This document shows, piece by piece, positions 1,363-8,547 of a stretch of DNA of 10,158 nt; within the stretch, counting starts at the first letter, position 1, and each line of letters begins with the position of its first letter. This stretch comes from Crocinitomix sp. (GTDB taxonomy: Bacteria; Bacteroidota; Bacteroidia; Flavobacteriales_D; Crocinitomicaceae). The stretch spans positions 1 to 10,158 of the forward strand of contig JADZFJ010000111.1 in the NCBI GenBank assembly GCA_020849935.1, read 5' to 3'. The translations under genes and the position numbers were made by a program. A model generated the notes under the pieces. That model was not told the origin of the DNA. It searched no databases and worked only from the letters and a program-made list of their open reading frames with translations.

Positions 1363-3120
1363 CTCCGCCGGAGCAGTGCTGGCCAAAAACAATTCTTCCA
1401 TTTGTTCCAATGCCAATGGGGCGGGGGAGTCAATCATCACGTCTCTGCCGCTATTGTTTTTCGGGAAAGCAATATAATCTCTAATCGAATCAGATCCGCC
1501 CATGGTTGCCACCAAACGGTCAAAACCAAAAGCCAATCCACCGTGCGGAGGAGCGCCATATTCAAAGGCATTTAATAAAAATCCAAATTGCGCTTTGGCT
1601 TCTTCATCTGAAAAACCAAGCAATTCAAACATTTTTGCTTGCAATTCTTTGTTGTGAATCCGTATCGATCCTCCACCCAACTCAACACCATTCATTGCTA
1701 AGTCGTAAGCATTGGCTCTTACTTTGCCAGGTTCAGTTGCCAATAAATGAAAATCTTCTTTTTTTGGAGAGGTAAAAGGGTGGTGCATGGCGTGGTAACG
1801 GCCCGAATTTTCGTCCCATTCTAACAATGGAAAGTCCAACACCCACAACGGCGCAAATACATTAGGATCACGCAAACCAAGTTCGGTACCCAAATGTAAC
1901 CGCAATTCATTCATTTGCGAACGCACCTTATCCGTATTGCCCGACATTACAAAAATCAAATCACCTTTTTCAGCACCACAAACATTCGCCCAAGCACCGA
2001 GCGCTGCTTGATCATAAAATTTGTCGACAGTCGATTTATACGAACCATCCTCATTGCATTTACAATAAATCAAGCCACTTGCCCCAATTTGAGGACGTTT
2101 AACAAAATCCACCAAGGCATCCAATTGTTTTCGGGTATATTCACCGCAGCCTTTAGCCGTAATGGCCAACACCAATTCGGCATTGTCAAAAATGGCAAAA
2201 TCTTTGCCCTGCGCCAAACTCGTTAAATTCACAAACGACATATCAAAACGAATGTCGGGTTTATCCGAACCGTATTTCTCCATCGCCTCTGCATAGGTCA
2301 TTCGTGGAAATTCATAGTTAAACTCGTAATTTCTGCACGTTTTAAACAAGTGTTTAATCAAACCTTCAAATGTATTTAAAATATCTTCTTGGTCCACAAA
2401 CGCCATTTCACAATCAATCTGAGTAAATTCAGGCTGTCTATCCGCTCTTAAATCCTCATCTCTAAAACACTTAACTATTTGGTAATAACGGTCGTAGCCA
2501 GACACCATCAACAATTGTTTAAACGTCTGTGGCGATTGTGGCAATGCATAAAATTGCCCTGGGTTCATTCTGCTTGGTACCACAAAATCCCGTGCACCTT
2601 CTGGGGTCGATTTAATTAAATAAGGCGTTTCCACCTCCATAAAATTAACTGTATCCAAATATTTTCGAGTTTCTAACGAAACTTTATGTCTTAATTTTAA
2701 TTTTTCCTGCACCGGTTTTCGGCGTAAATCCAAATAGCGGTACTTCATTTTTAATTCCTCCCCACCATCTGTTTGGTCTTCAATCGTAAAAGGCGGCGTT
2801 AACGAAGCATTTAATAAAACTACTGAGGTAGCTTTAATTTCAATATCCCCCGTCACCATTTTTGGGTTTTTGTCGTAACGTTCAATCACTTCACCGGTCA
2901 CTTGCACCACATATTCGCGGCCCAACGCTTTTAAATTCGCCATCACTTCATCCGAAACAACACCAATTTCCCCAACAATTTGCACCAATCCATAACGGTC
3001 GCGTAAATCAACCCAAATAATATTTCCTTTATCTCGGATGGTCTGAACCCAACCAGCCAACGTAACTTGGCTTCCAATATTTTCTTTACGTAACTCGCCG
3101 CAGGTGTGTGATCTGTACAT
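1360..3120 (-). CDS. aspS: Aspartate-tRNA ligase
   Basis: This class IIb aminoacyl-tRNA synthetase charges tRNA-Asp with aspartate in the cytoplasm using ATP. The 586 residues match the usual length of bacterial AspRS (about 580-600). Residues 1-105 form the OB-fold anticodon-binding domain. Motif 1 is around 161-182 ([19 protein letters not shown]). The ALPQSPQ amino-acid-binding segment is at 192-198. Motif 2 is [18 protein letters not shown] at 219-236. The bacterial GAD insertion domain occupies roughly 280-420. Motif 3, [10 protein letters not shown], is at 527-536, followed by the AFPKN signature near 551-555. All key residues are present. The start is fixed by the conserved [15 protein letters not shown]/TAtcTTTa-like promoter sits about 25 bases upstream. 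It is a housekeeping gene with no link to the peptide locus on the other side. Confidence 0.98.
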
Positions 3121-3143
3121 GACTTTAATCTAAAATGTGCGCG

Positions 3144-3176
3144 TAAAGATAGTTATTTCATCCCTTATTGCGCAAA
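3144..3176 (-). promoter_or_regulatory. Putative Bacteroidota-type promoter of aspS
   Basis: On the minus strand TTTG (3173-3176) is followed after 21 bases by TATCTTTA (3144-3151). This is one base from the Bacteroidota -7 consensus TAnnTTTG and close to the usual spacing. It would give a 5' untranslated region of about 20 bases. No start site is directly shown. Confidence 0.4.
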
Positions 3177-3245
3177 ACAAACCCGCTTTCAAATCAGTAT
3201 TTAATATAATTTGTACTTCATTCTGCCATTTACCTGTTTTTTTTT

Positions 3246-3394
3246 GGGCGTTCCCACGACATCCTGACGATCCCGACTGAAACGTAGGGATGTCGAGATC
3301 GTCGGGGTCATGCTCTCCGTTATAGTTACCTTACAGTTGGTTTCGAGAGCCTCAACCACCTGCAAGGCAAGCTGCCACTCCGATCATTAACGCA
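3246..3394. repeat. Degenerate flavobacterial intergenic repeat element
   Basis: The segment opens with GGGCGTTCCC and closes with TTAACGC, so its ends are inverted copies of GCGTT/AACGC. The inner text (tctccgttatagttacc, then tgcaaggcaagctgcc, then ctccgatcattaacgc) matches the layout I recall for a repeat scattered between genes in flavobacteria. That family assignment is from memory. Inside are a large imperfect hairpin (3329-3347 with 3351-3367) and two interleaved inverted repeats: CGACATCC 3257-3264 with GGATGTCG 3288-3295, and GACGATC 3266-3272 with GATCGTC 3297-3303. It has no open frame. It lies between the divergently transcribed aspS and the peptide array. Confidence 0.6.
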
Positions 3395-3403
3395 AAATGG
3401 TTC

Positions 3404-3440
3404 TAGGTATTTATACTTACTTTCTAGGTATAAACACTTA
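3404..3440. promoter_or_regulatory. Imperfect dyad upstream of the peptide array
   Basis: TAGGTATTTATACTTA (3404-3419) faces TAGGTATAAACACTTA (3425-3440) across CTTTC. Thirteen of 16 positions are complementary, and two of the three mismatches would be G-U pairs in RNA. It is the diverged copy of the perfect dyad at 4576-4612, with the same loop, and ends 140 bases before the first peptide ATG. It lies immediately upstream of a weak TTG / TAAAAATT promoter candidate, so an operator role is more likely than a terminator. Regulator unknown. Confidence 0.55.
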
Positions 3441-3444
3441 AATA

Positions 3445-3476
3445 ATTGATAAACAATGAAATAATTCATAAAAATT
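3445..3476 (+). promoter_or_regulatory. Weak promoter candidate for the peptide array
   Basis: ATTG (3445-3448) and TAAAAATT (3469-3476) are separated by 20 bases. The TTG and the TA are in the right places for a Bacteroidota promoter, but the 3' TTTG of the -7 box is missing. The same pair is kept in the duplicated region at 4617-4647. This argues for function but may only reflect common descent. Confidence 0.25.
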
Positions 3477-3580
3477 ATCAAAATTTAGGCGGTAACTAAA
3501 ATTTTTTTTCATAACTTACTCATCATAAAGCGTAATCCGAAAAGCTAATAGAGTAGGAATATTATTCAAAATTTAGTTCA

Positions 3581-3709
3581 ATGAAAAAAGCAAATGTATC
3601 TCCATCGTTGGAGAATTTTTCTGAAAAAGAAATTAAAACCACTGCTGCAAACAAGTTAAAAGGTGGTGGATCCACTGCTTTAATACTTGATTTGATAGTT
3701 TCTGGTTAA
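3581..3709 (+). CDS. RiPP-type peptide 1, Cys-free, Gly-Gly leader
   Basis: This is a 42-residue precursor-like peptide. Residues 1-27 are a hydrophilic leader (MKKANVSPSLENFSEKEI..., then TTAANKLK). Residues 28-30 are Gly-Gly-Gly, a processing motif of the double-glycine type. Residues 31-42 are the predicted core, STALILDLIVSG, which has no Cys. Leader and Gly motif match the Cys-containing precursor at 4754, so the same leader-binding enzyme or transporter could act on both. The double-glycine class is known to be cleaved and exported by C39-peptidase ABC transporters; none is in this window. As the first gene of the array it follows the dyad, the promoter candidate and the first 33-base element. 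Function is unknown. Confidence 0.82.
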   Translation: MKKANVSPSLENFSEKEIKTTAANKLKGGGSTALILDLIVSG

Positions 3710-3779
3710 TCATTAATTTCAATAAAAAGCGTAATCCGAAAAGCTAATAGAGTAGGAATATTAATCAAAATTTAGTTCA

Positions 3780-3908
3780 ATGAAAAAAGTAAATGTATCT
3801 CCATCGTTGGAGAATTTTTCTGAAAAAGAAATTAAAGCAACAGCTGCAAACAAGTTAAAAGGTGGTGGATCCACTGCTTTAATACTTGATTTGATAGTTT
3901 CTGGTTAA
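3780..3908 (+). CDS. RiPP-type peptide 2, Cys-free, Gly-Gly leader
   Basis: The 42 residues have a core (STALILDLIVSG) identical to that of peptide 1. The leader differs at Val4 instead of Ala and at Ala20 in place of Thr. The near-identical DNA, including the flanking spacer, points to a recent duplication of the whole unit. The 70-base gap to peptide 1 contains only the spacer and a 33-base element, so the genes are probably co-transcribed, or each is made from its own processed RNA. The role is not recognised. Two identical cores suggest gene dosage rather than core diversification for this pair. Confidence 0.82.
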   Translation: MKKVNVSPSLENFSEKEIKATAANKLKGGGSTALILDLIVSG

Positions 3909-3979
3909 TCATTAATTTCAATAAAAAGCGTAATCCGAAAAGCTATAAGAGTAGGAATATCAATTAAAAATTTATTTCA

Positions 3980-4108
3980 ATGAAAAAAGTAAATGTATCT
4001 CCAACATTGGAGAATTTTTCTGAAAAAGAAATTAAAGCAACAGCAGCAAACAAATTAAAAGGTGGTGGATCAACTGCCTTCATAACCGATTTGATAGTTG
4101 CTGGTTAA
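3980..4108 (+). CDS. RiPP-type peptide 3, Cys-free, variant core
   Basis: The leader is almost unchanged (Thr9 for Ser9), while the core is STAFITDLIVAG. Differences from peptides 1-2 are concentrated in the core (Phe for Leu, Thr for Leu, Ala for Ser). The Ser-Thr start, the central Asp, the Ile-Val pair and the final Gly are kept. A constant leader with a varying core is typical of multi-precursor RiPP families. It is preceded by the third 33-base element. No Cys, and no known modification motif, is visible. Confidence 0.82.
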   Translation: MKKVNVSPTLENFSEKEIKATAANKLKGGGSTAFITDLIVAG

Positions 4109-4180
4109 TCATTAATTTCAATAAAAAAGCGTAATCCGAAAAGCTATAAGAGTAGGAATATAAATTCAAAAGCCTTAAAA

Positions 4181-4309
4181 ATGAAAAAATCAAAATTAAC
4201 ACCAAGTTTAGAAAATTTTTCTGAAAAAGAAATTAAAGCAACAGCTGCAAACAAATTAAAAGGTGGAGGATCCACTACTTTAATACTTGATTTGATAGTT
4301 GTTGGTTAA
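4181..4309 (+). CDS. RiPP-type peptide 4, Cys-free, divergent leader start
   Basis: The first residues are MKKSKLTPSLENFSEKEI, differing at positions 4-7 from peptides 1-3. The rest of the leader, with AANKLKGGG, is the same. The core is STTLILDLIVVG. Codons for Ser-Leu-Glu differ synonymously from those in peptides 1-3 (agt tta gaa against tcg ttg gag). This is direct evidence that the peptide, not only the DNA repeat, is under selection. The 18 bases before its ATG also differ (ends ccttaaaa). Confidence 0.82.
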   Translation: MKKSKLTPSLENFSEKEIKATAANKLKGGGSTTLILDLIVVG

Positions 4310-4381
4310 TCATTAATTTCAATAAAAAAGCGTAATCCGAAAAGCTTATAGAGTAGGAATATCAATTCAAAAACCTTAAAA

Positions 4382-4510
4382 ATGAAAAAGTCAAAATTAA
4401 CACCAAGATTAGAAAATTTTTCTGAAAAAGAAATTAAAACAACTGCAGCAAACAAGTTAAAAGGTGGTGGTTCGACTGCCTACATAAGCGATATGATTGT
4501 TGCTGGTTAA
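4382..4510 (+). CDS. RiPP-type peptide 5, Cys-free, most divergent core
   Basis: This last gene of the array has leader MKKSKLTPRLENFSEKEI and core STAYISDMIVAG, the most changed of the five. The pattern S-T-x-x-I-x-D-x-I-V-x-G still holds. The usual spacer is absent after its stop. Instead there are 60 bases with a weak pairing of AAACCC (4510-4515) and GGGTTT (4553-4558), which could end the array transcript but has a very large loop. After that the duplicated regulatory region of the 82-residue precursor begins. Confidence 0.82.
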   Translation: MKKSKLTPRLENFSEKEIKTTAANKLKGGGSTAYISDMIVAG

Positions 4511-4575
4511 AACCCAGCCAGTCAAACCTTGGGCAAGCAACATTCGCTAAAAGGGTTTAACGCAATTATATTTTC

Positions 4576-4612
4576 TAGGTGTTTATACCTACTTTCTAGG
4601 TATAAACACCTA
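4576..4612. promoter_or_regulatory. Perfect 16-bp dyad upstream of the Cys precursor
   Basis: TAGGTGTTTATACCTA (4576-4591) is followed by CTTTC and its exact reverse complement (4597-4612). Each arm is itself nearly palindromic (TAGGT n6 ACCTA), so the site could hold two dimers of a helix-turn-helix regulator. It ends 141 bases before the ATG at 4754, against 140 for the diverged copy at 3404-3440, and about 4 bases upstream of a candidate -33 box. That placement suits an activator. It could instead fold as RNA if the array transcript reads through. There is no U-tract after it. Confidence 0.6.
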
Positions 4613-4616
4613 AATT

Positions 4617-4647
4617 TTTGATAGACAAGCATATAATTCTAAAAATT
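4617..4647 (+). promoter_or_regulatory. Weak promoter candidate for precursor and MNIO genes
   Basis: TTTG (4617-4620), a 19-base gap and TAAAAATT (4640-4647) fit the Bacteroidota -33/-7 layout apart from the degenerate 3' half of the -7 box. It lies directly after the perfect dyad. If used, the transcript would have a leader of about 100 bases containing the sixth copy of the 33-base element. Confidence 0.3.
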
Positions 4648-4702
4648 TAACAAATTTTAAGAAGCAACCAAAATATTTTTTTCATAACTTGCTCATCAGT
4701 AA

Positions 4703-4735
4703 GCGGAATCCGAAAAGCTGATAGAGTAGGAATAT
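4703..4735 (+). promoter_or_regulatory. Sixth copy of the 33-base 5' element
   Basis: It reads GCGGAATCCGAAAAGCT, then GAT, then AGAGTAGGAATAT, 18 bases before the ATG at 4754. It differs from the array copies by one base in the conserved first half and in the variable triplet. Its presence in front of a gene with a very different core ties the element to the shared leader or to shared control. Confidence 0.6.
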
Positions 4736-4753
4736 TATCCAAAATTTATTTCA

Positions 4754-5002
4754 ATGAAAAAAGTAAATGTATCTCCATCATTGGAGAATTTTTCTGAAAA
4801 AGAAATCAATGCAAATGCTGTAAACAGCATTAAAGGTGGAGGAGTTATCACCGATCCAAAAGACGAAAAAGATCCACCTCCAGGATGTCCAACATGTCGT
4901 TCAGGATTTCCTGGCGATACATGTCCAGCTTGCCGTTCAGGTTTTCCTGGTGGAGGCATTGGAGATTTAGTAGATGAATTCGCAGTGGATTTATTAGGAT
5001 AA
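4754..5002 (+). CDS. Cys-containing RiPP precursor, probable MNIO substrate
   Basis: The 82-residue peptide has a leader MKKVNVSPSLENFSEKEI followed by NANAVNSIK and Gly28-Gly29-Gly30. The predicted core is 52 residues. It begins with an acidic, Pro-rich linker (VITDPKDEKDPPP). Two copies of CPxCRSGFPG follow, at 45-54 (CPTC) and 57-66 (CPAC), with a 12-residue period, and then an acidic hydrophobic tail, GIGDLVDEFAVDLLG. The only Cys residues are 45, 48, 57 and 60. MNIO enzymes of the DUF692 family are known to modify Cys in peptide substrates (for example MbnB, TglH, and a Chryseobacterium ChrH system), so these CxxC units are the likely targets. The MNIO gene follows by 67 bases. The product could be a metal-binding peptide; this is inference. 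Confidence 0.88.
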   Translation: MKKVNVSPSLENFSEKEINANAVNSIKGGGVITDPKDEKDPPPGCPTCRSGFPGDTCPACRSGFPGGGIGDLVDEFAVDLLG

Positions 5003-5013
5003 TCACAAATTTT

Positions 5014-5046
5014 AAACTGTTGGTTGACACTGTTAACCAACAGTTT
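5014..5046 (+). terminator. Strong hairpin between precursor and MNIO genes
   Basis: AAACTGTTGGTT (5014-5025) pairs perfectly with AACCAACAGTTT (5035-5046). Inner bases extend the stem to about 15 pairs with a 3-base loop. It starts 12 bases after the precursor stop and is followed by ATTTCATCATTTT, a poor U-tract. It probably acts as a partial terminator or 3' stabiliser, giving more precursor than enzyme mRNA, an arrangement common in RiPP operons. Confidence 0.65.
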
Positions 5047-5069
5047 ATTTCATCATTTTAAGCTAATTT

Positions 5070-5963
5070 ATGAGTCAATTTTTAGGAGTAGGAATCATGT
5101 ATAATCCCTCATTGCAAGGTTTTTTTGATACGTATGGGGATGCGATAGATTATGTTGAAGTAATTCCAGACGTTTTTTTAACCGATAACGGAGTGGGTCA
5201 CCCCAACCGTTTTGCCTTGTCCGCAGGGTCGCACGAAAAATTGTGTGATTTATCCGCTCGTTGGCCACTCGTTGCTCATTATGTTGGTTTTTCACTTGGC
5301 ACCGCCGGCTATTTCGATCAGGAATATTTGGCCAACATGGTTAAGTTTCAAGACATTTATAAATTTAAATGGAACAGCGAACACCTTTCTTTTTCAAAAG
5401 TTCACGATGAAGAAGTAGGGGAGTATGCCGTTTGTCTTGCCCTTCCATTGCCTTTTGATGGTGAAGTATTAGAAATGTTTGCAGAAAAAACCAAAAAAAT
5501 TCAAGCCGCCCTCAACACCGATTTTTTAATCGAAAACAATGTCTATTTTGTACATATCGAGGACGAGGATTATTTAGAAGGTGTTTTTCTGAAAGAATTA
5601 AGCGAAAAAGGAAATTGTGGAATGTTGTTAGACTTGCATAATGTGCACGCCAACGCCACCAATTTTGGATTCGATCGCAAACAATTTTTAGACAGCTTGG
5701 ATTTAACATCGGTCCAAGAAATTCACATTGCGGGCGGTAATGTTATCGGCGGCATGTACCTCGATTCTCATTCAGGTCCTTGCAACGATGAGGTGTGGGA
5801 ATTATTGGATTATGTGGTGCCAAAATGTCCTAATTTAAGGGGAGTCACGTACGAGTTTCACGAATCCTATTTCGATAAACTAGGCAACGACGGAATCTTG
5901 GCACAAATTAACCATGCCCGCGAAATTTGTAATAAATACATTAAATCAGAAGTATGTCTTTAG
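5070..5963 (+). CDS. DUF692-family multinuclear non-heme iron oxidase (RiPP-modifying)
   Basis: This 297-residue protein has the usual length for DUF692/MNIO TIM-barrel enzymes, which bind two or three irons and oxidise residues, mostly Cys, of peptide precursors. Visible family signatures: LGVGI near the start, AHYVGFSLG (69-77), SEHLSF (103-108), LIENN (153-157), LLDLHNVHANA (186-196), EIHIAGG (217-223), DSHSG (232-236) and YEFHES (261-266). Likely metal ligands within these are His70, Glu104, Glu155, Asp188/His190, His219, Asp232/His234 and Glu262, assigned by family pattern. The start is the ATG at 5070, because GVGI belongs to the first strand. An in-frame ATG at 5097 has AGGAG in front but would lose that strand. 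The stop overlaps the next gene. It most likely acts with that neighbour on the 82-residue precursor. Confidence 0.93.
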   Translation: MSQFLGVGIMYNPSLQGFFDTYGDAIDYVEVIPDVFLTDNGVGHPNRFALSAGSHEKLCDLSARWPLVAHYVGFSLGTAGYFDQEYLANMVKFQDIYKFKWNSEHLSFSKVHDEEVGEYAVCLALPLPFDGEVLEMFAEKTKKIQAALNTDFLIENNVYFVHIEDEDYLEGVFLKELSEKGNCGMLLDLHNVHANATNFGFDRKQFLDSLDLTSVQEIHIAGGNVIGGMYLDSHSGPCNDEVWELLDYVVPKCPNLRGVTYEFHESYFDKLGNDGILAQINHAREICNKYIKSEVCL

Positions 5964-6691
5964 TCGCTTTTCAAGAATTATTTGCCAGTTTAATTGCAGA
6001 TCCTGCTCTGTGCAAAAAAATCATCGCCAACCCAAGTCTTTTGGAGACAGATTATGATTTAACCGAACGAGAAATCAAACGAATCAATTCTTTTTTTAAA
6101 CAAAAAGGAATGGGGGTTAATTGTATGTTGTATCAAATCAACCGGTACACACCCGTTTTTGATTTAATGCCTTATACAGCCAAAGTCTTACATAAAAACT
6201 GTAAAGTGTACGCCCGCCAATTTTGGGATGGCTATATCAAAACAAATTTTCAATTCCGCGACGAAGTTTTACTTTTTGGCGCATATATGCAAAACAGGTT
6301 AAAAAACGAACCTGAAACAGTGCCTTATTTACAAGACATTGTCAATTTTGAAATCACCTATAACCGCATTCGTTATTCGCTGTACGATAATCCAGCAGAT
6401 GGAATTCCATTTTATAGCACTCAACTTAATTCATACACACGAATGGTGTTTATGAAATACGATTTGCGTTATTTAATCGATCAAGTAATCACCAATGCAC
6501 CCGGTACCGTTTTTGACGACATTCCCGTAGTAAATTCGTGGTACTTAATCCGATTTAATCCCACCATTACCATGCACGCCGTCGACCTTGAAACAGCAGA
6601 AGCAATATTGGCAGAAAAGCTTGATATTTCAACTTTACCAGCTTCCATTTTAGACGGTGGTTTTGTGGTAAAAACAAAGGTTCCAGCGTAG
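5954..6691 (+). CDS. Probable MNIO partner protein (leader-binding type)
   Basis: The 245-residue protein overlaps the MNIO gene by 10 bases, indicating translational coupling. Residues 1-75 (FQELFASLIADPALCKKIIANPSLLETDYDLTEREIKRINSFF and on to FDLMPYTAKVL) follow the helical pattern of the N-terminal region of DUF2063/MbnC-like MNIO partners: a short first helix, then 'DP.L...I..NP', then 'LTEREI', then 'LP.T..VL'. In that group the partner is known to bind the precursor leader and the enzyme. The remainder, from about 80, is a mixed-composition domain ending in beta-rich FVVKTKVPA. It has no membrane segment or signal peptide. Family assignment rests on pattern and position, not on a strong motif. 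The role as partner is likely. Confidence 0.68.
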   Translation: MSLVAFQELFASLIADPALCKKIIANPSLLETDYDLTEREIKRINSFFKQKGMGVNCMLYQINRYTPVFDLMPYTAKVLHKNCKVYARQFWDGYIKTNFQFRDEVLLFGAYMQNRLKNEPETVPYLQDIVNFEITYNRIRYSLYDNPADGIPFYSTQLNSYTRMVFMKYDLRYLIDQVITNAPGTVFDDIPVVNSWYLIRFNPTITMHAVDLETAEAILAEKLDISTLPASILDGGFVVKTKVPA

Positions 6692-6692
6692 G

Positions 6693-7220
6693 TTAAAATT
6701 GGTAGTACAAACCAATTTCTCCAACTATCGTTGATTTGAAATGTTTTGAATTTAAATAAAAATCTACACCATACCCGGCTTGTAAATTAAATTGGATTAC
6801 TGTCCATAAGTCAACTTTAAATCCTGTACCTATAGCAGTGGTATAAGTGCGCTGTGAAGACAAAATATATTTTTTGGTAACTGTCAAACCAGTAATTGGA
6901 TCAGTGCTATTTGTTTTATGAAAACGCTCATCGAAATAAAAATGATTTCCCCAATAACCATACATGGTGACAGGCGAAAATTCTTTGAATTTTAACAATC
7001 CTGAAAATCCAGCACTCACCAAAACCTCATTTGATGAAAAAATGGGTACCCCCGTGAATTGCACACCAACTTTATTTGGCCAATGCCGAAAACTAAAACC
7101 TAATCCAGTTGACCTGCCAGCAGAAACACCTAAACTATTTTTGTAATTAGTAGAATCGTTTTGCGCATAAGTTGAAGATAAAATCAAAAATGTCAAAAAT
7201 AAAAAAAGCAAATTTTTCAT
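6693..7220 (-). CDS. Small outer-membrane beta-barrel protein, paralogue 1
   Basis: The 175-residue product starts MKNLLFLFLTFLILSSTYAQ, a Sec signal peptide with predicted cleavage after Ala-Gln, before NDST. I chose the ATG at 7220: the frame opens 13 codons upstream, but those residues would spoil the signal peptide, and the paralogue at 7810 starts at the same point. Mature residues alternate in amphipathic strands (GLGFSFRHWPNKVGVQFTG, FNLQAGYGVDFY), and the chain ends in GLYYQF with a C-terminal Phe typical of outer-membrane barrels. The length fits an eight-strand barrel. It ends one base after the convergent MNIO partner gene. There is no evident functional link to the peptide locus. 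It has an insertion (NSTDPITGLTVTKK) relative to paralogue 2. Confidence 0.85.
   Translation of the reverse strand: MKNLLFLFLTFLILSSTYAQNDSTNYKNSLGVSAGRSTGLGFSFRHWPNKVGVQFTGVPIFSSNEVLVSAGFSGLLKFKEFSPVTMYGYWGNHFYFDERFHKTNSTDPITGLTVTKKYILSSQRTYTTAIGTGFKVDLWTVIQFNLQAGYGVDFYLNSKHFKSTIVGEIGLYYQF
6696..6718. terminator. Hairpin at the convergent gene ends
   Basis: AAATTGGT (6696-6703) pairs with ACCAATTT (6711-6718) across 7 bases. It lies just beyond the stop codon of the MNIO partner and inside the last codons of the minus-strand barrel gene. The U-tract is poor on both strands, so it is only a candidate bidirectional terminator. Confidence 0.3.
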
Positions 7221-7235
7221 ATTGGGAATGAATTT
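7198..7235 (-). repeat. 38-bp direct repeat at barrel gene start, copy 1
   Basis: This stretch spans the first codons and 15 bases of 5' untranslated region of paralogue 1. It is identical to 7788-7825 at the start of paralogue 2. The identity extends through the non-coding part, which indicates recent gene duplication or gene conversion between the two. Confidence 0.75.
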
Positions 7236-7315
7236 GATAAGTATTAAAATCGTAGACAAGATAGCGATTAAACGAATCCAATGATAAAAACCTTATTAAT
7301 TTTAATCAAATTACC

Positions 7316-7810
7316 TTAAAAATGGTAATACACACTAACTTCTCCTGATAAGTACGTATGATATAATTTGACGAAAGTATTATATCTTACCCCATAACCG
7401 GTTTGAAGATTGAGATCAAAGTACTTCAAAAAATTAAACCTAAATCCTACTCCTAAGGCAGAATTAAAAGTGTAAGTTCGATAATCCGGTTGTTCCCCGT
7501 AAACACCAAAGTTGTACCTACGGTAATCCATATTGGTTCCTAAATATCCAAACAACCGAATTTGGTTAAAATCCCTAATCTTAGCTAAAAGAGACACGCC
7601 TGAACTTGAAAAAAAGTGATAACTTGAAAAAACAGGAATGCCAGTTACTTGAAAACCAATTTTTTTGGGCCAATAGCGGTAACTAAATCCAGCACCTGTT
7701 GATATACCAGCCGAAAGACCTAAACTATGTTTGTAATTAACCGAATCGTTTTGCGCTTGGCTTGTCCACACGATCAATAATGTCGTAAATAAAAAAAGCA
7801 AATTTTTCAT
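7316..7810 (-). CDS. Small outer-membrane beta-barrel protein, paralogue 2
   Basis: The 164-residue protein has signal peptide MKNLLFLFTTLLIVWTSQAQ, then NDSVNYKHSLGLSAG. The block YRYWPKKIGFQVTGIPVFSS is shared almost residue for residue with paralogue 3. The C-terminus is SVYYHF. It differs from its siblings mainly in the region between the third and fourth predicted hairpins (TNMDYRRYNFGVYGEQPDY), which is where surface loops would be expected. The 95-base gap to paralogue 1 and 122-base gap to paralogue 3 have no clear promoter, so one transcript or three are both possible. Confidence 0.85.
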   Translation of the reverse strand: MKNLLFLFTTLLIVWTSQAQNDSVNYKHSLGLSAGISTGAGFSYRYWPKKIGFQVTGIPVFSSYHFFSSSGVSLLAKIRDFNQIRLFGYLGTNMDYRRYNFGVYGEQPDYRTYTFNSALGVGFRFNFLKYFDLNLQTGYGVRYNTFVKLYHTYLSGEVSVYYHF

Positions 7811-7825
7811 ATTGGGAATGAATTT
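7788..7825 (-). repeat. 38-bp direct repeat at barrel gene start, copy 2
   Basis: This is identical to 7198-7235. It covers the start codon and signal-peptide codons of paralogue 2 together with its immediate upstream bases. Paralogue 3 lacks this upstream sequence. Confidence 0.75.
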
Positions 7826-7932
7826 CTTTATTAATAATCAGTAAGGTAAGCCTTAAACGAAACGAATTCTAAAAAATTGCATTTAATTTCATTCAAAACA
7901 AATAAAAATAGTTTTTAAGTTAATTAGTACAT

Positions 7933-8457
7933 CTAAAAATGGTAATACAAACCTGCCTCAGCAGCAAATATAGTTCGGTACATATTTTGATTAAAATCAA
8001 AACTTGCACCATAACCTGTTTGCAAGTTAAAATCTAAAACTTCCCAAAAATTAAATCTGAATCCTACACCCAAAGCCGTGTTATACGTGTAATTGTTAAA
8101 CGTTACATTGGTTTCTGTGAACACACCTGTATTTGGATCTAGTTCCAATATTATATGACTACTTCTATTGTAAATCAGGTGGTTTCCAAAATATCCAAAC
8201 ATCCTAATATCCGAAAAATCTTTAATCGTTATAAGTCCTGATAGGGCAACACTTGTATAAATTGAATTGCTAGAAAAAATAGGAATTCCCGTTACCTGTA
8301 AACCAACTTTTTTAGGCCAATATCGGTAACTAAAACCTAAACCTGTCGAAACACCAGCGGAAAGACCTAAACTATGTTTGTATCCTACCGAATCATTTTG
8401 CGCATGCCCGAACGTTAAGAATAACATTGTTGAGCATAAAAAAAGGAATTTTTTCAT
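7933..8457 (-). CDS. Small outer-membrane beta-barrel protein, paralogue 3
   Basis: The 174-residue protein starts at the ATG at 8457 (MKKFLFLCSTMLFLTFGHAQ, then NDSVGYKHSLGLSAG). A GTG directly upstream is an alternative but gives no better signal. It shares SYRYWPKKVGLQVTGIPIFSS and the FRFNF...DFNLQTGYG strand pair with paralogue 2, and ends GLYYHF. It carries an insertion (ELDPNTGVFTETN) in the same variable loop that is extended in paralogue 1. The gene is divergent from tadA with a 90-base gap that must hold both promoters. Function is unknown; a structural or small-ligand barrel is possible. Confidence 0.85.
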   Translation of the reverse strand: MKKFLFLCSTMLFLTFGHAQNDSVGYKHSLGLSAGVSTGLGFSYRYWPKKVGLQVTGIPIFSSNSIYTSVALSGLITIKDFSDIRMFGYFGNHLIYNRSSHIILELDPNTGVFTETNVTFNNYTYNTALGVGFRFNFWEVLDFNLQTGYGASFDFNQNMYRTIFAAEAGLYYHF

Positions 8458-8547
8458 CACAATAAATAAGTTAATTTATAAAGACTCTCTGAGTAAAGGT
8501 AACATTTATAACGGCTAAAGGAGATAAAAATTATACATTTGTTGAAC

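Follow-up and report, generated by a model that had tools for sequence, protein, structure and literature searches.

A Cys-free Gly-Gly-leader peptide array beside an MNIO-type cluster in Crocinitomix sp., with a DUF805b RNA before every precursor gene

Clusters in which an MNIO enzyme, a precursor with a CxxC motif and a DUF2063-like partner stand together are of a known kind, according to PMC12452194. In that same paper, adjamnio-7 (MNIO sequence cluster 7, Novilysobacter) has a CxxC precursor without a signal peptide beside its MNIO, and tandem precursor genes are mentioned for the bufferins, which also combine an MNIO with a DUF2063-type partner. The chryseobasin systems (ChrH/DybH) have a Bacteroidota MNIO that acts on a CPxC motif (CPACGMG), as described in PMC12636315. 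Two precursors are given for the pes cluster in PMC13060819, so that multiple precursors alone, in view of the bufferin tandem genes, are not new. Here we describe a locus for ribosomally synthesised and post-translationally modified peptides (RiPPs) in Crocinitomix sp. that carries these known parts. The window analysed is contig JADZFJ010000111.1 (10,158 nt) of assembly GCA_020849935.1, a genome of 2.93 Mb in 576 contigs that is 67.65% complete. What is new is an array of five genes for Cys-free peptides upstream of the Cys precursor, with one DUF805b RNA element per gene. No MNIO system with Cys-free precursors appeared among the literature matches listed, as far as titles and abstract openings tell, and for adjamnio, or MNIO with CxxC, no literature beyond PMC12452194 was found.

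The sequence-only reading had recognised a Gly-Gly-leader precursor with two CPxCRSGFPG units, followed by an MNIO and an overlapping partner in a RiPP-type cluster, and this description held throughout. The precursor is an 82-aa open reading frame (ORF; 4754..5002, plus strand) with a Gly-Gly leader, two Cys modules, CPTCRSGFPG (4886-4915) and CPACRSGFPG (4922-4951), which hold four Cys in total, and a C-terminal tail. The Cys module is a repeating unit, since P0129, an otherwise near-identical variant of this precursor, carries it once and the precursor of the window twice. The MNIO enzyme (297 aa, 5070..5963, plus) matches PF05114 with 177.3 bits (cut-off 25, E 4.8e-52), and its ORF overlaps by 10 nt that of the probable partner (245 aa, 5954..6691, plus). 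Residues D188, H219, D232 and H234 of the MNIO, which we take to be the iron ligands, are invariant in the 28 aligned rows of its branch and are the same in 7dz9 and 8hci (MbnB and TglH chains).

The enzyme falls below the NCBIfam cut-offs for BufB, HvfB, ApyH, ChrH and MbnB. MNIO_BufB is its best NCBIfam model, at 158.1 bits against a cut-off of 310 (NF050167), while the scores were 67.6 bits against 600 for ChrH (NF050165) and 20 against 325 for the methanobactin MbnB model (TIGR04159). The locus differs from the bufferins also in that no Sec signal peptide is apparent by eye in its precursor, and from the chryseobasins in that its motif is CPxCRSGF in repeats, with CPxCGxG absent, and its leader is of the Gly-Gly type instead of carrying a lipobox. 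A chryseobasin-related precursor is present elsewhere in the same genome (contig C108, 3532-3714, minus), where it ends in CPACGMG and has a lipobox-like Cys (NF050125, 44 bits, cut-off 40), with a ChrH-like MNIO of 394 aa at 2387-3571 (minus) that scores 377.4 bits, below the cut-off of 600.

The window partner had no Pfam match over the cut-off, DUF2063 included, and no match among PDB sequences, and 4 of 25 partner relatives matched DUF2063 weakly (best E 0.0082). A comparison of the partner profile with that of seven DUF2063-type MNIO partners, three of which were tested and verified as DUF2063 by Pfam, gave 94.6% probability and an E of 6.7e-8 over 161 columns. On the basis of this profile match the protein is probably DUF2063-like and fits PME-type 2, a type of partner that accompanies precursors without Sec signals (PMC12452194).

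For comparison we used 35 related loci out of 123 pattern matches in titled genome records. All 35 have a C-x-x-C-x-S-G ORF upstream of the MNIO, with cores such as CPxCRSGF, CPACRSGAN, CQACLSGVHF, CNTCTSGDHW, CPGCRSGFDP and CRPCLSGLDRF among others; such a precursor occurs twice in L036, L055 and L057. A partner ORF directly follows the MNIO in 30 of the 35 by a simple script rule, which misses L047, L054, L057, L063 and L064. The enzymes form a definable branch with one core motif: uncharacterised MNIOs with a CxxCxSG core, from Bacteroidota to cyanobacteria and proteobacteria. The precursor of Lysobacter penaei (L063), with GCRPCLSGLDRF, differs from that of the window in having a single module and no Gly-Gly leader, and its locus has no array. 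This locus falls among the 28 rows of the branch, and judging by the published description it may belong to the same group as adjamnio-7.

In a tree of 31 MNIO rows (28 of the branch and three outgroups, with a program warning about long branches in other parts of it), the window enzyme groups with L033 and L034 (100/99), then with three further Taibaiella rows, L035, L036 and L057 (100/99). Among the best 120 of 306 matches, the nearest nine proteins outside its own cluster are 62-71% identical, and the best comes from Chitinophagaceae bacterium MMS25-I14. Within its own order the branch was found only in this genome of 399 (E 1e-50), and across a sample of the phylum only in this genome of 395 (E 1e-60). 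Because of this isolated occurrence, a horizontal gain of the MNIO is likely. Regarding a plausible donor, 354 plasmid records contain some MNIO, all of them less than 60% identical (28-32% among the matches listed), and they thus offer no close mobile source.

Upstream of the Cys precursor lie five tandem genes for peptides of 42 aa, all on the plus strand and none with a Cys, as the sequence-only reading had noted: 3581..3709, 3780..3908, 3980..4108, 4181..4309 and 4382..4510 (units 1 to 5). Together with the Cys precursor they make up one 199-nt repeat family of six units, spaced 199-201 nt apart in the array and 372 nt from there to the Cys gene. All six leaders have GGG and a hydrophobic residue at position -4 of the Gly-Gly. 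The claim that they share the same leader needs to be qualified. They are closely related, since residues 10-18 are identical in all six and unit 2 matches the Cys precursor exactly in its first 18 residues; yet the N-terminus of units 4 and 5 differs from that of the others, and residues 19, 21, 23, 25 and 26 differ from the Cys precursor in all ten array peptides, that is, in the five of the window and in five further variants found on contigs of at most 1,018 bp (one of them marked ncbi). Thr32, Ile35 and the last Gly (Gly42) are invariant in these ten peptides, and residue 37 is Asp or Glu, Asp being replaced by Glu in variants P0124 and P0125.

The array is real coding sequence, as follows from its substitution pattern of a constrained leader and a freer core. 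With the 10 copy pairs of the window pooled, which are not independent, the ratio of nonsynonymous to synonymous differences per site (pN/pS) was 0.33 overall. It was 0.04 over leader residues 10-30 (42 synonymous differences in 133 sites, 6 nonsynonymous in 497) and 0.65 over the core (23 in 96 and 41 in 264, respectively). The copies are also mosaic, with groupings that change along the gene. In the stretch that begins 20 nt upstream and ends at codon 9, units 4 and 5 form one group (91%), separate from the first three units and the Cys gene. The core shows a different arrangement, in which unit 4 clusters with units 1 and 2 (92%) and unit 3 pairs with unit 5 (87%). Unit 4 therefore joins a 5′ part of the unit 5 type to a core of the unit 1/2 type, and variant P0121 joins the unit 4 leader to the unit 1 core.

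The 5′ control shared by all six genes, already suspected in the sequence-only reading, consists at least of the DUF805b RNA (RF02914), which that reading had missed. The element lies on the plus strand before array genes 1 to 5, at 3527..3559 and 3726..3758 (45.8 bits each), 3925..3957 and 4126..4158 (42.3 bits each) and 4327..4359 (46.4 bits), and before the Cys precursor at 4700..4732 (42.8 bits). All scores exceed the gathering score of 35.6, and the element ends 21 or 22 nt before the ATG in each case. In addition, a promoter/operator-like block of 109 nt stands before the first array gene (block A, 3401..3509, plus) and again, as a direct repeat of 82% identity, before the Cys gene (block B, 4573..4681, plus). 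Since the block precedes both, the array probably has a promoter of its own, and the Cys precursor, MNIO and partner a second one. Block A contains an imperfect stem-loop (3404-3440, fold z -3.9) and block B a perfect 16-bp inverted repeat with a 5-nt loop (4576-4612; stem -22.6 kcal/mol and z -7.0 as RNA), matched by a terminator-like scan. This repeat may be an operator, or else the terminator of the array transcript. For a candidate operator of a RiPP regulon, the pattern TAGGTN6ACCTA was counted and has 4 genomic sites, of which the window holds two, whereas the reversed pattern used as control has 6; a narrower inverted-repeat pattern with one mismatch has 7 matches (four in the window) against 0 for the controls. 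Terminator-like hairpins also occur inside four of the leaders, with none in units 4 and 5.

In regards to the association of array and MNIO in related genomes, whose absence the sequence-only reading had named as a refutation, the results go in part against that reading. A leader-paralogue scan, with the first precursor of each locus as query, found the array in none of the 35 relatives; the ORFs that it flagged in L047, L055 and L059 have no Gly-Gly leader and were judged spurious. Five relative genomes searched whole gave two matches (E 0.16 and 0.71), both interrupted by stops and neither credible. The array is thus not an intrinsic part of this MNIO system. On the other hand, an array without the MNIO was not found either: in the 399 genomes of the order the array profile had six matches, all in the window, and either one of the two occurs only in this genome.

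We consider the best explanation, at a probability of about 0.45, to be remodelling of the Cys modules by the MNIO, with an array for co-regulated, exported Gly-Gly-leader peptides that are not Cys-modified. There would be two neighbouring transcription units, each headed by the 109-nt block and with the RNA before every precursor gene. In the downstream unit the partner would present the Gly-Gly-leader precursor and the MNIO would oxidatively remodel both of its CPxCRSGF modules to yield the modified Cys peptide; this step is suggested by the conservation of CxxCxSG across the family. The upstream unit, switched on together with it, would supply a Cys-free peptide of 12 to 13 residues (STALILDLIVSG type) in five versions, which a C39 peptidase/ABC exporter would cleave behind the Gly-Gly and carry out of the cell without Cys modification. 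Cleavage and export are proposed because of the Gly-Gly site and because a C39-peptidase ABC transporter adjoins the MNIO operon in L033, with a C39 domain on another contig (C172) in this genome. A conserved leader with a freer core is the pattern of exported or modified peptides, which also seems to favour export. The array may have originated by duplication of the promoter-RNA-leader segment of the Cys precursor gene, which placed it before another core, or by the same event in the opposite direction, with later recombination.

What the array does is the least secure part of this explanation, and several observations weigh against it. The branch appears to work without an array, as its absence from all 35 relatives would indicate, and L034 has the same two Cys modules but no Gly-Gly leader. 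Among the five clade relatives a C39 gene lies beside the operon in L033 only, and the sole C39 gene found in this incomplete genome is off-contig, beside another Cys-rich Gly-Gly peptide. The five fixed leader differences, near the Gly-Gly, make a shared exporter or enzyme uncertain, and the same differences could be what lets the array escape the MNIO. Six peptides with closely related leaders, only one of which has Cys, provide a natural test of MNIO recognition. As for the off-contig peptide, it is a very Cys-rich Gly-Gly-leader peptide of 60 aa (contig C172, 1082-1264) with a sub-threshold DUF805b before it. It is followed by a protein without assignment, a TauD-like dioxygenase, a hydrolase-like ORF (by eye) and the C39 protein, which is cut by the contig end, and it marks a possible further RiPP cluster.

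Among the alternatives, it is somewhat doubtful that the array is a by-product, namely precursor front ends recombined onto a short core, which would act as decoys titrating the enzyme, the exporter or a DUF805b-binding factor, or would be copies in slow decay. The near-identical tandem units and the mosaic copies fit this idea, as does the restriction of the array to one genome of 399 plus short contigs, and tandem Gly-Gly genes with their own DUF805b recur, as a pair on contig C499 of the same genome and as a set of three in genome G001. However, all five ORFs are open and the leader is under strong purifying selection over residues 10-30. A pure decoy would need no constrained core, and Thr32, Ile35 and Gly42 are kept in all ten peptides, even if the core pN/pS of 0.65 corresponds to merely mild constraint. 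Another origin, in which the Cys precursor lost its Cys modules so that the leader came to adjoin the C-terminal tail directly, was suggested by tail look-alikes (ITDLIV versus ITDYVD and IGDLVD). The likeness is no better than chance (p 0.19-0.93 for the 3′-end DNA alignment of the five units, p 0.20 for the protein test), and such a deletion is unsupported and very improbable.

That the array peptides are themselves substrates we regard as unlikely. The MNIO and partner would then recognise the related leader and oxidise Thr32 or the acidic residue 37 instead of a Cys, or a graspetide ligase encoded elsewhere in the genome would link these two residues. The sequence-only reading had held that known MNIO systems modify Cys, which is incomplete as a general statement. 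PMC13060819 reports MNIO-related hydroxylation of Asp, and by their titles PMC12257519 (ortho-tyrosines) and PMC13174530 (homocitrulline) report other targets too, so the absence of Cys does not in itself exempt the array from modification. A substrate role is favoured by Thr32 and an acidic residue 37, which all ten array peptides have, and by two ATP-grasp proteins of the grasp-with-spasm type encoded in the genome (200.9 and 218.5 bits, each short of the cut-off of 230). Nevertheless, the relatives pair the branch with CxxCxSG cores without exception, the Glu of P0124 and P0125 speaks against an Asp-specific enzyme, and the precursors that adjoin the two ATP-grasp genes have different leaders. 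More speculative again, and slightly less probable in our view, is a strain-variable secreted signal or partner factor, under the same pseudoknot RNA switch as the Cys gene and acting with the modified Cys peptide outside the cell. Were this true, DUF805b would serve these bacteria as a shared sensor for a programme of secreted products.

DUF805b itself has no function known to us, and a literature search for it found no paper. In the MNIO branch it lies before the first precursor of L033, L034, L035, L036 and L057, three times over the gathering score and twice below it (29.2 and 27.8 bits), while the second precursors of L036 and L057 are without it. None of 20 other MNIO loci had it by a regular expression, a scan outside of which 10 of the 35 loci fell. 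Element and clade thus appear to travel together. As a mark of Gly-Gly leaders within the branch it was rejected, since L034 has the RNA without Gly-Gly and in some cyanobacterial precursors the reverse is the case, with Gly-Gly present and DUF805b absent.

The element is widespread in the family, with a match at E 0.001 in 72 of 100 genomes and over the cut-off in 49. Of the 66 high-scoring elements in 60 regions of these genomes (67 rows, of which one outside its region was dropped), 65 have an ATG ORF of at least 30 aa within 150 nt, which in 63 of the 65 starts 14-25 nt past the element. Only 22 of these 65 ORFs have at most 150 aa, and most encode other proteins, often secreted ones by eye, so that a specific link to Gly-Gly peptides was rejected. 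DUF805b is a general element, not specific to RiPPs. A loose small-Gly-Gly rule was positive for 6 of 59 downstream ORFs against 6 of 375 control ORFs of the same loci; two of the six (L132 and L137) are not leader-like, and the control matches in L117 and L130 are neighbours in the same Gly-Gly sets.

Within its own genome, the window's element precedes Gly-Gly-leader ORFs in 10 of 13 matches, six of them in the window; the four outside score 29.9-34.6 bits, below the cut-off. One of the four is beside a grasp-with-spasm-type ATP-grasp gene, one precedes the Cys-rich peptide on the contig with the C39 gene, and two stand in tandem on contig C499 before the second grasp-with-spasm-type gene, the core of one tandem copy being in another frame. 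In other genomes DUF805b is found before Gly-Gly peptides beside LanC-like or ATP-grasp genes (L130, L131 and L153). In the window there is one copy for each gene of a tandem peptide array. An Rfam RNA of unassigned function is hereby tied to several RiPP precursor genes, which provides a testable setting for it. In genome G001, of the same genus, three tandem Gly-Gly-leader genes (L117, 2314-3141, minus) have a DUF805b each, one just below the cut-off, and form a parallel to the array of the window; no modifying enzyme was recognised by eye in the 5-kb region that was inspected.

The cmscan structure line of DUF805b gives a hairpin alone. We observed that the loop base before CC (xCCGAAAA) pairs with the base after GG at the 3′ end (GTAGGx′) in 70 of 75 elements, compared with a mean of 35.1 and a maximum of 49 in 10,000 shuffles. 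A second collection of 75 distinct elements, extended by L036 and L057, had 68 pairs, against 37-42 when the 3′ partner was slid by one or two positions. The pairs include T-A, G-C, C-G and A-T, in elements that are not all independent, and the covariation of loop and 3′ end points to an H-type pseudoknot.

Downstream of the partner, the window has three tandem paralogues of 164-188 aa on the minus strand (6693-8460; repeat D2, 68-77% over 213 nt), beta-barrel-like and secreted by eye; the single one searched had no Pfam match. Just before block A, at 3302-3398 on the minus strand, there is a sub-threshold match to the Flavo-1 RNA (36.1 bits, cut-off 42).

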